From Flavobacteriaceae bacterium (GTDB lineage: Bacteria; Bacteroidota; Bacteroidia; Flavobacteriales; Weeksellaceae): a stretch of 64,000 nucleotides of DNA. Below are positions 16,178 to 64,000 of the stretch, in pieces; position 1 is the stretch's first letter, and every line of letters starts with the position of its first letter. The position numbers and the translations under genes are program-made. The notes under the pieces are model-generated. The model was given only the letters and a program-made list of their open reading frames with translations. It searched no databases and had not been told where the DNA came from. Location: the NCBI GenBank assembly GCA_012522185.1, contig JAAYKY010000057.1, positions 1 to 64,000 of the forward strand, given 5' to 3'.

Positions 16178-16211
16178 AAATCCTCTTGCGCTTATGTGAG
16201 AGGATTTTTTT
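16178..16211 (+). terminator. Intrinsic terminator of the susCDE-like operon
   Basis: AAATCCTCT pairs with AGAGGATTT, followed by a run of T. It lies between the susE-like gene and the DUF2809 gene. Confidence 0.85.
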
Positions 16212-16222
16212 AATTTAGGGAA

Positions 16223-16627
16223 ATGAAATTCCGTTTCGATAAAAAATATTTTCTGTATTTCCTGGGATTGCTCATCGTAGAAATCCTGATTGCTTTGTTT
16301 GTGGAAAACCCTACGATTCGCGGCGCCATTGGCGATGTGCTGGTGGTGATTTTGATTTACTGTTTCATTCAGGCATTTTTTCAAATCAATAAAAAGAAAA
16401 CCATCATCGGTGTTGGGATATTTGCATTGCTCGTCGAAATATCACAAGCTTTCCAAGTTGTGGAAAAACTGAATTTACAGAACAGTAAGTTCTTTGCCAC
16501 CGTTTTGGGTACCACATTTGACCTCAATGATGTTTGGGCTTATTTGGCGGGCTGCGCCGTTGTTTGGATGCTGGAATTCTATGACGATGAATCCCGCCCG
16601 AAAAAGAAAAAGTTTTTGAGGTTTTGA
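16223..16627 (+). CDS. DUF2809 family small membrane protein
   Basis: A 134-residue protein with four predicted membrane helices (about 10-28, 33-51, 59-76 and 98-117). The stretch FVENPTIRGAIGDVLVVILIYCF and the later LGTTFDLNDVWAYLAGC match what I recall of the DUF2809 family, distant from VanZ-like proteins. The function of the family is unknown. The gene stands alone after the susCDE terminator and converges with the OsmC gene. The acidic and lysine-rich tail DDESRPKKKK is cytoplasmic by the positive-inside rule. Confidence 0.75.
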   Translation: MKFRFDKKYFLYFLGLLIVEILIALFVENPTIRGAIGDVLVVILIYCFIQAFFQINKKKTIIGVGIFALLVEISQAFQVVEKLNLQNSKFFATVLGTTFDLNDVWAYLAGCAVVWMLEFYDDESRPKKKKFLRF

Positions 16628-58646: not shown

Positions 58647-58701
58647 ATCCAACTTAACTTCTTGGCGAATATTCCAAGCGAAAAGATTGTACTTTTACAA
58701 G

Positions 58702-59199
58702 ATGGAAGATTTGATTTTCAAATTGCTATTTGCTGTTCTGATGTTAATCGGAGCTGCGGGTGCGGTTTTACCAGTCTTGCCCGGCGCGCCTTTGGCGTTT
58801 GCCTCTCTTTTGCTAGCCAAAATTCTTAATTTTTCTGAACTAAGTTGGTGGCTCATCGCTTTGTTTGGGGTGCTTACACTTGTGGGTGGGCTTTTGGATT
58901 ATCTACTTCCGATTGCGACGACTAAAAAGTTGGGAGGAAGCAAATATGGGATATGGGGATTAGTGATTGGTTTGATCGTTGGAATTCTATTTTCTCCTTT
59001 TGGTTTGATCAGTATTATTCTTGCTCCTTTTTTAGGCGCACTGATTGGGGAATTGATTTACGACCGGAAAAACCATAAAAGAGCTATGAAGGCAGCCTCG
59101 GGTTCGGTGATTGGCTATTTTCTGACAAGCGGATACGGATTTCTGCTTTCCATGAGTATGTTGGCTGTGTTTCTGTTTTACGACATCATCCGTGGGTAA
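58702..59199 (+). CDS. DUF456 family membrane protein
   Basis: A 165-residue protein with about five hydrophobic segments and small-residue-rich helices (AAGAVLPVLPGAPLAFASLLLAK). The GxxGxxxP patterns and KKLGGSKYGIWGLVIG match DUF456, a family of unknown function possibly related to glycine-zipper transporters. I chose ATG at 58702. It is divergent from the MscS operon and convergent with ogt; its stop is four bases from the ogt stop. Confidence 0.85.
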   Translation: MEDLIFKLLFAVLMLIGAAGAVLPVLPGAPLAFASLLLAKILNFSELSWWLIALFGVLTLVGGLLDYLLPIATTKKLGGSKYGIWGLVIGLIVGILFSPFGLISIILAPFLGALIGELIYDRKNHKRAMKAASGSVIGYFLTSGYGFLLSMSMLAVFLFYDIIRG

Positions 59200-59203
59200 G
59201 GAT

Positions 59204-59680
59204 TTAGAATAATTCCAGGGATTTGATTCCCTTTTCAAGTTCAAGAAGAAATTTTTTTCGATGAATTCCACCAGCATAACCTGTAAGGCTTCCATCTTTT
59301 CCGATGACTCGATGACAGGGAATGAGTAGGCAAATTGGATTTTTTCCATTGGCGGAAGCCGCCGCGCGAATCCTTTTTACATCGCCCAGATTTTTTGCTA
59401 ATTCATGATAAGAAATGGTTTTCCCGCATGGGATTTTTAGAAGTTCATTCCATACTTTTTGTTGGAAGTCGGTTCCGGAAGGATTTAAATTTACATCAAA
59501 TTTCCATTCGCCCTTTTTGAAGTAATCCTCTAATTGGGAAATTAATTTCAGAGCGATTTCAGGCTGGTAATCGGATTCAGAAGGTTCTTGGTTGGAGAAG
59601 AGTACCGAGTGGATTTCCTGATGGTTTCCTTTGATTTCCAACCATCCGATTTCTGTAAGATATTTTGAAGTAAAATTCAT
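59204..59680 (-). CDS. ogt: Methylated-DNA-protein-cysteine methyltransferase
   Basis: Repairs O6-methylguanine by moving the methyl group to its own cysteine. The 158 residues show an N-terminal domain (1-65) and a C-terminal winged domain with FQQKVWNELLKIPCGKTISYHELA and the active site NPICLLIPCHRVIGKDG, with C122 as acceptor, then GYAGG. The arginine finger R103 in VKRIRAAASANG flips the base. It is a stand-alone repair protein; no Ada regulator domain is present. Confidence 0.95.
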   Translation of the reverse strand: MNFTSKYLTEIGWLEIKGNHQEIHSVLFSNQEPSESDYQPEIALKLISQLEDYFKKGEWKFDVNLNPSGTDFQQKVWNELLKIPCGKTISYHELAKNLGDVKRIRAAASANGKNPICLLIPCHRVIGKDGSLTGYAGGIHRKKFLLELEKGIKSLELF

Positions 59681-59698: not shown

Positions 59699-59706
59699 TA
59701 TATTTG
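59699..59706 (+). promoter_or_regulatory. -7 element of the rimP-nusA-infB promoter
   Basis: TATATTTG matches TAnnTTTG, 60 bp before the rimP start, giving a leader of about 50 bases that contains the mini-ORF and terminator. No TTG is seen at the expected -33 distance. Confidence 0.6.
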
Positions 59707-59716
59707 CACCGAATTT

Positions 59717-59722
59717 AAGGAG
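59717..59722 (+). promoter_or_regulatory. Strong Shine-Dalgarno sequence of the leader ORF
   Basis: AAGGAG lies seven bases before the leader ATG, an ideal match to the anti-Shine-Dalgarno CCUCCUU. Such a sequence is unusual in this window. Confidence 0.7.
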
Positions 59723-59729
59723 AAAAACC

Positions 59730-59747
59730 ATGAAAGAGAGCCGTTAG
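59730..59747 (+). CDS. Five-codon leader ORF (MKESR)
   Basis: ATG AAA GAG AGC CGT TAG encodes Met-Lys-Glu-Ser-Arg. It has an ideal Shine-Dalgarno sequence. Its codons form the left arm of the terminator hairpin, so a ribosome on it would prevent the hairpin. This is the arrangement of an attenuation leader. Whether it is translated is inference. Confidence 0.5.
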   Translation: MKESR

Positions 59748-59758
59748 CTCTCTTTTTT
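59733..59758 (+). terminator. Leader terminator upstream of rimP (possible attenuator)
   Basis: AAAGAGAGC and GCTCTCTTT form a perfect 9-bp stem around CGTTA, followed by a T-run and then, seven bases on, the rimP ATG. It would stop transcription just before the operon unless prevented. Confidence 0.8.
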
Positions 59759-59765
59759 ATTCCGT

Positions 59766-60233
59766 ATGAATCAAGAATTAGTAAAACAATTAATTGAAGA
59801 AGCGATTTCGGAGAACCCGACGCTTTTTTTGGTGGATTGGAAAATCTCACCTGATTATTCCATTGAAATTTTGGTCGATGGCGATGAGGGAGTTTCGATT
59901 GATGAAATCGTGCGTATCAGTCGTCATGTGGAGCATAATTTGGACAGGGAAGAAGCCGACTTTTCATTAAATGTATCTTCTGCCGGAGTAGGAAATCCTT
60001 TGTTGCTTCCGCGTCAATTCAGAAAAAACATCGGTAGAACGCTGAAGGTGACCAAAACGGACGGAAGTAAAGAATTTGAAGGAGAATTGATTTTAGCCGA
60101 TGAGGAATCCATCGTTTTGAAATGGAGCGTACGCGAACCTAAACCTGTGGGCAAAGGCAAGCATACCGTTGAGAAAGAAGAAAAGATTAGATATACAGAT
60201 ATTAAAAAAGCAATAGTAAAAATTACTTTTTAA
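59766..60233 (+). CDS. rimP: Ribosome maturation factor RimP
   Basis: Assists 30S subunit assembly. The 155 residues include an N-terminal domain with LFLVDWKISPDYSIEILVDGDEGVSIDEIVRISRHVE (quoted in part; conserved DG and CxxxSR-like part) and a C-terminal SH3-like domain. NVSSAGVGNPLLLPRQFRKNIGRTLKV matches the family joint. It opens the rimP-nusA-infB operon, with nusA 11 bp later. The leader carries a possible attenuator. Confidence 0.95.
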   Translation: MNQELVKQLIEEAISENPTLFLVDWKISPDYSIEILVDGDEGVSIDEIVRISRHVEHNLDREEADFSLNVSSAGVGNPLLLPRQFRKNIGRTLKVTKTDGSKEFEGELILADEESIVLKWSVREPKPVGKGKHTVEKEEKIRYTDIKKAIVKITF

Positions 60234-60244
60234 AACTTAGCAAA

Positions 60245-61480
60245 ATGGACAATATTGCACTCATAGAATCCTTTGGTGATTTTAAGGATGAAAAAAACAT
60301 AGACCGAATCACATTGATGGCGATTTTGGAAGAATCCCTTCAAAGTGTATTGAGGAAAAAATACGGATCCGATGATAACTTTGACGTAATTGTAAACCCG
60401 GACAAAGGAGACCTTGAGATTTGGCACAATCGAATTGTAGTAGAAGATGGAATGGTCGAGGACGATAGTGCAGAGATTGAATTGTCTGCGGCGCGTAAAA
60501 TCGAGCCTGACTTTGAAGTGGGAGAAGAGGTTTCTGAGCCTGTGATGCTGAAAGATTTGGGGAGAAGAGCTATTTTGGCGCTTCGTCAAAACCTTGTAGC
60601 CAAAGTAATGGAGCATGACAATGCCAATCTTTATGAGAGATTCAAGGATTTGGAAGGGGAAATTGTTTCAGGAGAAGTTCACCACATTCGTCAGAAACAC
60701 ATCATCGTGATGGACGACGAACAAAATGAAATGATTTTACCAAGAGAAAATCAAATTCCTTCTGATTTTTTCAGAAAAGGAGAATCGGTACGAGCAGTTG
60801 TGGAAGAGGTGAGATTAAAAGGGATCAAACCTCAGATTATTTTATCGAGAACTTCGCCTAAATTTTTGGAGAAATTGTTTGAACAAGAAATCCCTGAAAT
60901 CTTTGATGGGATTATTACCATTAAAGGTGTTGTAAGAATTCCCGGTGAGAAAGCCAAAGTGGCAGTTGAGTCTTATGACGACCGAATTGACCCAGTAGGA
61001 GCTTGTGTTGGAATGAAAGGTTCAAGGATCCACACCATCGTGCGCGAACTGAAAAATGAAAACATTGACGTGATTAATTATACCAATAACTTACAATTGT
61101 ATGTTGCAAGGACACTGAGTCCAGCGCGAATCTCCCGAACGGAAATTGACGAGGAAGAAAACAAAGTTACCGTATATGTAAAGCCTGAAGAAGTTTCCAA
61201 AGCCATCGGTAAGAGTGGACACAACGTAAGGCTTGCTGGAAAATTACTCGGAATGGAAATTGATGTGTTCAGAGATATTCCGCAGGATGAAGACGTAGAA
61301 TTAGCAGAATTCAGCGACGAAATTGATACTTGGGTCATCGAAGCATTCCAGAAAATCGGACTCGATACCGCAAGAAGTATATTGGAGCAAGACATAAATG
61401 ACCTGATATCAAGAACAGATTTAGAAGAAGAAACCATTCACGATGTGATTCGGATTCTACGTGAAGAACTTGAAGACTGA
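60245..61480 (+). CDS. nusA: Transcription termination/antitermination factor NusA
   Basis: Binds RNA polymerase and RNA to control pausing and termination. The 411 residues comprise the N-terminal RNAP-binding domain (1-125), the S1 domain (about 135-200, EGEIVSGEVHHIRQKHIIV), two KH domains with GACVGMKGSRIHTIVRELKNE and KAIGKSGHNVRLAGKLLGMEI, and a C-terminal acidic part. There is no duplicated AR repeat as in E. coli. In other bacteria NusA represses its own operon. The preceding leader terminator could be the point of that control. Confidence 0.97.
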   Translation: MDNIALIESFGDFKDEKNIDRITLMAILEESLQSVLRKKYGSDDNFDVIVNPDKGDLEIWHNRIVVEDGMVEDDSAEIELSAARKIEPDFEVGEEVSEPVMLKDLGRRAILALRQNLVAKVMEHDNANLYERFKDLEGEIVSGEVHHIRQKHIIVMDDEQNEMILPRENQIPSDFFRKGESVRAVVEEVRLKGIKPQIILSRTSPKFLEKLFEQEIPEIFDGIITIKGVVRIPGEKAKVAVESYDDRIDPVGACVGMKGSRIHTIVRELKNENIDVINYTNNLQLYVARTLSPARISRTEIDEEENKVTVYVKPEEVSKAIGKSGHNVRLAGKLLGMEIDVFRDIPQDEDVELAEFSDEIDTWVIEAFQKIGLDTARSILEQDINDLISRTDLEEETIHDVIRILREELED

Positions 61481-61555: not shown

Positions 61556-64000
61556 ATGTCGGAAACGATAAGATTAAATAAAGTACTAAAAGAATTAAAC
61601 ATCTCAATTGATCGCGCGGTTGATTATTTGAGCGAACAAGGTATTCAGATTGAACGTACTCCCAATACGAAAATCGATCAGAGTACCTATTCGATTCTAA
61701 TCAAAGAGTTTCAGTCAGACGCTGAGCAAAAAGCCGCATCTGAAGAGGTGATTATCAATAAGATTCCGGAAAGAAAACCCGAACCGGTTAAAATGCCGGA
61801 ACCCGAGCCAAAACCTGAAGTGCCTGAGGAAATCATCACAGCCAAGGTAGAGCTCGAAGGGCCAAAGACCATCGGGAAAATTGATTTGGACAAATTAAAT
61901 CCTCCAAAACCTAAAGCCAAAGAACAGGAAAAACCGGTTGAGAAGCCAGTTGAAAAACCTGCGGCACCGGTTGAGAAAAAAGAAGAAAAACCAGTTGCAA
62001 AAGTAGAAGAGGAGAAAAAAGAAACGGTTCAGCCAAAGGAAGAAAAGCCAGCCGCTGAAAAGGAAAAAGAATCCAAACCTACCGAGCCTGCTTCCGACGA
62101 ACCTATAAAAATAGAAACCAAGTACAAAAAACTGGAAGGACCTAATTTTACAGGTAAAAAACTGGATCTTTCGGAATTTGAAAAAGACAAAAAACTTGCC
62201 GAAGACCGTAAGGAAAAACAGAAGCAAGAAAAAGAAAATAAAAAGAAAAGAAAACGCATACGCAAGGATGTCAAAATAGATGATGTCAAAACCTCAGGAA
62301 ACACCGGAGGTGGAAGAAATCAAAAAGGAGGTAATCAAAATCGTCCTGCACGAAGACAACCTGCTGAATTAACTGAGGAGGAAGTTTCTAAGCAAATTAA
62401 AGAAACACTTGAGAAACTTACCAATAAGGGAGTGAAATCCAAATCAGCCAAGTACAGGAGGGATAAACGTAAAGAGCGTCGTGAATTGGAAGCCATGGAA
62501 ATGGAGGCCATGGAAAAAGACAAAACACTTCATGTAACCGAATTTGTAACGGTAAATGAATTGGCCAGTCTGATGGATGTAGCGGTTACCGAAGTCATCT
62601 CAGCATGTATGGCACTAGGAATCATGGTAACCATGAATCAACGTCTGGAAGCAGATACGATTCAGTTGGTGGCCGATGACTTTGGCTTTGAAGTGGAGTT
62701 CAGCAACGTAGAAGAAGACTTGGACATCGAAGACGATGTAGAGGATCTACCGGAAGACCTGATTACGCGCGCACCAATTGTTACAGTGATGGGGCACGTG
62801 GATCACGGTAAAACTTCCTTGTTAGACTATATACGTAAAGCCAACGTAATTGCTGGAGAGTCCGGAGGGATTACTCAGCACATTGGTGCTTACAACGTGA
62901 AGTTGGAAAATGATCAGAGAATTACATTTCTTGATACGCCCGGTCACGAAGCCTTTACGGCGATGCGTGCAAGAGGAGCGCAAGTGACGGACATTGCAAT
63001 TATTGTAATTGCAGCAGACGATCAGGTGATGCCACAAACACGCGAGGCAATCAGCCACGCTCAAGCAGCTGAAGTGCCGATTATTTTTGCAATCAATAAA
63101 ATTGACAAACCCACAGCAAATCCAGATAAAGTAAAAGAACAATTGGCCAATATGAATTTATTGGTAGAAGATTGGGGAGGATCGATTCAATCCCAGGATA
63201 TTTCAGCCAAACAAGGATTAAATGTAGATGAACTCTTGGAAAAAGTTTTACTGGAAGCAGAGGTTTTAGAATTAAAAGCAAATCCCAACCGTCTGGCAAC
63301 CGGAACCGTAGTGGAGGCTTCCCTGGACAAAGGAAGAGGATATGTATCTACGATTTTGGTTCAAACCGGAACTTTACGAGTGGGAGACTATCTTGTCGCA
63401 GGAAGCAACCACGGAAAAGTACGTGCGATGTTGGACGAGAGAGGCAAGCCAGTAAAAGAAGCAGGCCCTTCTACTCCTGTAACCATTTTAGGATTGGATG
63501 GAGCACCAACGGCCGGGGATAAATTCCGTGTGTTTGAAGAAGAACGAGAGGCCAAACAAGTTGCAACCAAGCGTGAACAACTTCAGCGTGAGCAAACCAT
63601 CCGAACTCAAAAACATATTACACTGGATGAAATCGGAAGACGAATTGCTCTGGGTGACTTCCAGGAATTGAACATCATTTTGAAAGGAGACGTGGATGGC
63701 TCAGTAGAAGCCTTGACGGATTCCTTGCAGAAATTATCGACAGAAGAAATTCATATCAATATCCTTCACAAAGGAGTGGGGCAAATTACCGAGTCCGACG
63801 TATTGTTGGCAAGTGCTTCGGATGCAATTGTAATTGGCTTTAATGTGCGACCTGGAGTTTCTGCCAAAGAAATTGCGGAGCGAGAAGAAATTGAAATCCG
63901 AAACTATTCCATTATCTATGACGCCATTGATGATGTGAAAGAGGCGATGGAAGGAATGCTTTCGCCGGAATTGAAGGAGCAGGTATCAGGAAATATCGAA
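61556..64000 (+). CDS. infB: Translation initiation factor IF-2 (cut by window edge)
   Basis: Delivers initiator tRNA to the 30S subunit with GTP. The first 815 codons are in the window; the 3' end is missing. The N-terminal domain opens [17 protein letters not shown], then a long acidic/lysine-rich linker (about residues 60-300), then the IF2_N segment with [10 protein letters not shown]. The GTPase domain has G1 GHVDHGKT, G3 DTPGHEAF and G4 NKID, followed by domain II. It follows nusA by 75 bp, with a possible internal promoter, and ends at the window edge. Confidence 0.97.

Follow-up and report, generated by a model that had tools for sequence, protein, structure and literature searches.

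The rimP-nusA-infB operon in a genome of the Flavobacteriales opens with a short leader in which a hairpin and a T-run stand just upstream of rimP, and the locus raises the question of whether this hairpin is an attenuator and what would set the fraction of transcripts that pass it. The window, which is the whole 64,000-nt stretch of DNA that was analyzed, is part of a 2.55-Mb assembly. An earlier note on it proposed that a ribosome translating a mini-ORF led by a Shine–Dalgarno (SD) sequence blocks the terminator; its letters and coordinates at positions 59699–59768 were all correct when checked against the window sequence. All leader elements lie on the plus strand. The promoter element TATATTTG at 59699–59706 matches the −7 type TAnnTTTG, and transcription is expected to start near 59709–59711. 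The box is followed by GAATTTAAGGAGAAAAACC and then by ATG AAA GAG AGC CGT TAG, which is a mini-ORF of five codons (MKESR) at 59730–59747, with the ATG at 59730–59732 and the stop codon TAG at 59745–59747. The site of a family-specific leader element (GAATTTAAGGAGA) covers 59711–59723, and it contains the AAGGAG sequence (59717–59722), which is the Moheibacter version of this element. The predicted intrinsic terminator occupies 59733–59758 and has a perfect 9-bp stem, with the left arm AAAGAGAGC at 59733–59741, the 5-nt loop CGTTA at 59742–59746, and the right arm GCTCTCTTT at 59747–59755. Its run of six T extends to 59758 and is separated by seven bases from the rimP ATG at 59766. The identity of the operon was borne out by Pfam: rimP (59766–60233, plus strand; PF02576 and PF17384 above cut-off), which encodes the ribosome maturation factor, is the first gene, followed on the same strand by nusA (60245–61480; PF08529, PF13184) and by infB, encoding IF2 (61556–64000; PF11987, PF04760, PF00009), which continues past the window end. 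The divergent neighbor on the minus strand (59204–59680) encodes, according to Pfam, an O6-methylguanine methyltransferase-like protein.

Among named relatives, Moheibacter lacus is the closest by RimP (81%), and a genome from the genus search, probably that of Moheibacter lacus (G001), has an identical leader and rimP coordinates equal to those of the window. The window therefore very probably belongs to Moheibacter (Weeksellaceae, Flavobacteriales). RimP loci were sampled from six genomes of the genus, from the family (93 loci in 30 genera, including that of the window), from the rest of the order (69 more loci, 36 genera) and from the rest of the class (30 more loci), giving 192 loci in 96 genera. 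To count as a terminator, a stem had to contain three or more G-C pairs, be followed by a T-rich tail, and lie at most 130 nt upstream of rimP. A second set of 80 named genomes, which shares part of its species with the first, was fetched by a separate route.

The data strongly supported the proposal of the earlier note that the hairpin with its T-run is an attenuator upstream of rimP-nusA-infB. The computed energy of the stem alone was −11.8 kcal/mol, and in a 9-kb scan for terminator-like sites the hairpin ranked top, where the symmetry of the stem caused it to be listed for the minus strand. A terminator was present upstream of rimP in 184 of the 192 Bacteroidia loci and in 89 of the 96 sampled genera, as compared to 5.9% of shuffled leaders. 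It was found in all six congeners, in 87/87 other loci of the family, in 65/69 other loci of the order, and in 26/30 other loci of the class. At a score of at least 20 the terminator was detected in 93% of leaders versus 1.9% of shuffled ones, and 76 of the 80 separately fetched loci contained it. Within the window only four of 48 genes have such a site at most 130 nt upstream. Hence, the hairpin is beyond chance, and almost every sampled member of the Bacteroidia has a predicted rimP-leader attenuator. A TAnnTTTG box, the −7 consensus mapped in Flavobacterium psychrophilum (PMC9723704), precedes the stem in 173 of these 184 leaders (86/93 in the family, 63/65 in the rest of the order, and 24/26 in the rest of the class), with a median of 27 nt between the box and the first G-C pair of the stem, which places the terminator inside the operon's own leader. 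A comparison of the leader with the Rfam covariance models up to an E value of 10 returned no rimP or other credible leader match.

Two further observations concern related elements. In three loci of one genus (L096, L105, and L112; genus g54, family f6) the stretch from the promoter to the first transcribed bases is identical (GTATATTTGCCGCGAAATGGAAGACAG) while the hairpin varies, which suggests an extra constraint on the promoter-proximal sequence. The window also contains, at 16178–16223, another terminator-like hairpin (AATCCTCT...AGAGGATTTTTTT). A DUF2809 gene has its ATG about 19 nt past the end of this hairpin, which is either the terminator of the preceding gene or a second attenuator.

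The letters of the stem vary by genus (GAGGGGAC, GAGAGC, GGCC, GAGGCACGC, GAAGAGGC, GAGAGGAC), while its complementarity is kept. The most common stem outside the family of the window is GAGGGGAC...GTCCCCTC, and within the family the stems are of the types GGCC..GGCC/GGCTT..AAGCC, GAGGGCT..AGCTCTC, or GAGAGC..GCTCTC. Several Watson-Crick pair types occur at stem positions 2, 3, 5, and 6, which are compensatory changes. The pair counts were taken from the detected stems, because variable loop lengths left the arms out of register in the MAFFT alignment of the hairpins; the diversity of pair types is safer evidence than stem-arm swap statistics, which are inflated since the arms had been picked by pairing. 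A total of 38 out of 118 Flavobacteriales genomes contained the exact string GAGGGGACN{3,7}GTCCCCTCTTTT, at 39 places, each of them at most 400 nt upstream of rimP; therefore, the stem letters look recognized rather than generic. The Moheibacter-type stem occurs at rimP in all six congeners, and the genome of the window contains one copy of it. An extra copy, GAGAGC..GCTCTCTTTTT, lies distant from rimP in the probable Moheibacter lacus genome (G001:C6:114883–114905).

Competition for the right arm of the stem by another part of the leader did not exceed chance. The earlier note suggested that AAGGAGA could pair with TCTCTTT in the right arm (59749–59755). The two segments can indeed pair, with one G-U, and yet the pairing is weak (−3.5 kcal/mol versus −11.8 kcal/mol for the stem) and unconserved, and it was rejected as an anti-terminator on these grounds. 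In three groups the complementarity between the leader and the right arm was no better within loci than between loci, and no anti-terminator emerged from this comparison. The family leader element, which is TTTACGGAA in most sister genera and TTTAGGGAA in others, showed a different pattern. In the family, TTTACGGAA can pair with TTTTCGTA(G/A) just past the T-run, and this pairing is better within loci than across loci (p ~0.001); the excess was absent outside the family. The sites of this pairing correspond to 59711–59723 and 59753–59765 in the window, and they are also found in the leaders of loci L018, L044, and L067. The pairing of TTTACGGAA is possible in the readthrough RNA alone, after the termination decision.

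These features are similar to those of the rimP-leader, which headed a ranking of predicted attenuators and for which NusA was put forward as the effector (Naville and Gautheret 2010, PMC2965389). Both are intrinsic terminators in the 5′ UTR of rimP-nusA-infB (there located 4 to 130 nt before rimP), neither has a larger conserved structure or, in the general form, a visible anti-terminator, and in both the stem letters are rimP-specific. The Bacteroidia consensus GGGGAC...GTCCCC also resembles the GGGc...gCCC of that element. On the other hand, the main text of that study names Firmicutes and Gammaproteobacteria and not Bacteroidetes, and the window stem GAGAGC...GCTCTC differs from the consensus most common elsewhere in Bacteroidia and has no GGGc(...)gCCC letters. 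The window stem has lost the GGGGAC letters, which would speak for sequence recognition. In Bacillus subtilis, NusA regulates its own expression by stimulating termination in the 5′ leader of its gene (reviewed in PMC12288461), where a leader terminator likewise controls transcription into nusA, while the promoter is of a different type and the NusA dependence in Bacteroidia is an analogy. The Escherichia coli operon is also under NusA control (PMC6511841). In Streptococcus agalactiae, transcription terminates 31 nt after the start site upstream of rimP-nusA, and NusA feedback was proposed (PMC4448216). The terminator is close to the start site in both organisms, 31 nt in the former and about 49 nt here, although the S. 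agalactiae leader belongs to another phylum, has another sequence, and was seen by RNA-seq in short and long forms, whereas the present one is a sequence prediction. In Flavobacterium psychrophilum, which is of the same order, a list of structured 5′ elements includes one at the same gene that is conserved among genera of the Flavobacteriaceae and matches no Rfam family, and the consulted part of that report gives no structure or mechanism for it (PMC9723704).

Taken together, the element is probably the Moheibacter copy of a Bacteroidia-wide rimP-leader attenuator, with NusA as the factor most likely to set the readthrough fraction. RNA polymerase would start at the TAnnTTTG promoter and transcribe about 23 nt, followed by the stem–loop and the U-run. 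A fraction of the polymerases would halt at about +49, leaving a short leader RNA, and the remainder would read through into rimP-nusA-infB. Since NusA stimulates pausing and intrinsic termination, plentiful NusA would lead to more stops and scarce NusA to more readthrough, which would amount to negative autoregulation. Attenuation itself is very probable, while the assignment of NusA as its effector, which draws on the analogy with other bacteria, is reasonably likely. The lack of a competing leader segment, the rimP-specific stem letters, and the presence of nusA in the operon form the pattern that had led to the proposal of an attenuator mediated by a protein, with NusA as the leading candidate (PMC2965389). 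Both the occurrence of termination in the organism of the window and the choice of NusA over RimP, IF2, or another factor as the effector are inferred. As an attenuator the element would be ordinary and widespread, and its stem is lineage-specific.

The same attenuator could respond to an effector other than NusA, with RimP, IF2, or another RNA-binding protein reading the stem or the leader. Recognition by a protein that reads the sequence would fit with stem letters unique to rimP in the order, the operon itself encodes RimP and IF2, and feedback by RimP has also been considered (PMC2965389). However, the experimental support from other organisms, B. subtilis and E. coli, is for NusA alone, and we regard a different effector as unlikely, though worth keeping in view.

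Another possibility is suggested by an ATG at the foot of the stem, which in the window is the start codon of the mini-ORF. It could be functional without a conserved peptide, if initiation there affected the hairpin or were coupled to rimP translation in the readthrough mRNA. The ATG was present in 20 of 28 genera of the family versus 9.3 expected (0 of 2000 shuffles) and in 12 of 20 other Flavobacteriales genera versus 5.7 expected (5 of 2000 shuffles), in statistics for which the genera are not independent by descent. In one genome (G002) the stop codon of the ORF overlaps the rimP start (TTATGA). On the other hand, there was no trend in other Bacteroidia (5/21 versus 6.0 expected), the position of the stop codon varied, and the frames 0, 1, and 2 relative to rimP were represented in the family by 5, 7, and 8 cases, that is, randomly. 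An A-rich foot inherited by descent is a simpler source of the excess, and this functional reading of the ATG is quite improbable. Given the relatedness of the genera, the A-rich foot, and the lack of a conserved peptide or stop, a function is rated unlikely; the stem-foot ATG is the sole part of the sensor idea of the earlier note with wider support. A more speculative version, for which we see only a slim chance, is that the Flavobacteriales attenuator gained a stem-foot start codon that is read for initiation only, with neither a peptide nor a fixed frame; the supply of initiating ribosomes would then tune the ribosome-maturation and IF2 genes atop the older NusA-controlled terminator.

The hairpin could also be a fixed throttle or insulator, that is, a constitutive, regulator-free partial terminator which lowers operon expression or blocks read-in. 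The failure to find an anti-terminator fits this explanation, as does the plus-strand gene at 58687–59199, from which transcription could continue across the methyltransferase gene on the opposite strand and enter rimP. However, in almost all loci the operon's promoter precedes the terminator, whose position is kept across families, while an insulator would be expected before the promoter, and this explanation is very unlikely.

The last explanation is that of the earlier note, in which ribosomes free of bS21 would bind AAGGAG, translate MKESR, and thereby block the terminator, making the leader a sensor of ribosome state. The window and three congeners share the AAGGAG sequence, its spacing, and the overlap with the stem. 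The note had named a lack of joint conservation of these elements among relatives as a refutation of its model, and this is what the comparison of related leaders gave: of the SD, the ORF, and the hairpin, the hairpin alone is conserved. Even within the genus these elements vary: AAGGAG is found in four of six congeners and is replaced by TTTTTAGGAAA or TTTTAGGGAAA in the other two, and the mini-ORF has 5, 12, 22, 6, 0, and 41 codons. No conserved frame or stop was seen in the six congeners or in the family, nor was a mutually exclusive anti-terminator, as would be expected of a leader-peptide attenuator. SD-like sequences before the stem-foot ATG were found in 0 of 87 other family loci (29 other genera) and in 0 of 65 other Flavobacteriales loci. 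AAGGAG with a spaced ATG is common by chance: the pattern AAGGAGN{4,10}ATG occurs six times in the window versus 3.25 expected (11 of 100 shuffles reach six), and genome-wide 165 times versus 122 for the reversed control.

The label of an "ideal" SD also does not hold in this lineage. The anti-SD tail was taken from congeners, as a 16S gene was not found in the assembly of the window genome. In two Moheibacter congeners (L201, L203) the 16S 3′ tail is GGAACAUCUCUUAUAUAGAG, versus the canonical ...CACCUCCUUUCU, and the tail was altered in all ten genera of the family that were read, in agreement with the altered anti-SD of Weeksellaceae (PMC9976891, PMC8710568). The genus anti-SD is therefore the non-canonical AUCUCUUAU, to which AAGGAG is not a full match. 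The rpsU gene of the window genome has AAUAAGAG five bases before its ATG (L163:1480–1494), an exact 7-bp match to the tail of the congeners, so that the cognate SD of the genus appears to be AUAAGAG, not AAGGAG. The 7-bp pairing of the AUCUCUUAU tail with the AUAAGAG of rpsU is a natural covariation of SD with anti-SD. The 16S tails of three other genera (g16, g18, and g29) likewise end in UCUCUU, versus the UCUCA form reported for Chryseobacteria. The AGGAGA of the leader can form 6 bp, one of them G-U, with the genus anti-SD UCUCUU at −6.3 kcal/mol, near the −7.0 kcal/mol of rpsU, and only one of 48 window genes pairs as well; hence, weak recognition may still occur. In most of nine other genera with a 16S read, however, the pairing of the leader with its own anti-SD was no better than shuffled. 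The known SD control in Flavobacteriales, the bS21/rpsU autoregulation of Flavobacterium johnsoniae, shares with the proposed sensor an SD sequence in this order, but it is limited to rpsU, where it needs an extended SD rather than a rimP mini-ORF, and the anti-SD is altered in the family of the window (PMC9976891). The pairing there is stronger than −13 kcal/mol, on an energy scale that differs from that of the values computed here, and the rimP leader has no exceptionally strong cognate SD of this kind.

The geometry is also against a ribosome on the mini-ORF blocking the terminator. With a start near 59710, the AUG lies at about +21 and the T-run ends at about +49, which leaves a gap of about 28 nt. 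The edge of a ribosome extends about 16 nt past the A of the AUG, and about 14 nt of RNA are covered by RNA polymerase. Because these lengths together exceed 28 nt, the ribosome would hardly be seated before the polymerase passes the decision point; judged by these general footprints, there is almost no room for it. An SD-led leader peptide is therefore rejected because of its conservation, the anti-SD of the genus, and the geometry, and the sensor is the least likely of the explanations.

The analysis indicates that SD look-alikes need judging by the organism's own 16S tail. For the attenuator with NusA as its probable effector, the rimP-specific stem raises a testable question, which is whether NusA reads the stem to set its own level, and this question arises in a phylum that departs from the model bacteria in both its promoters and its translation initiation.
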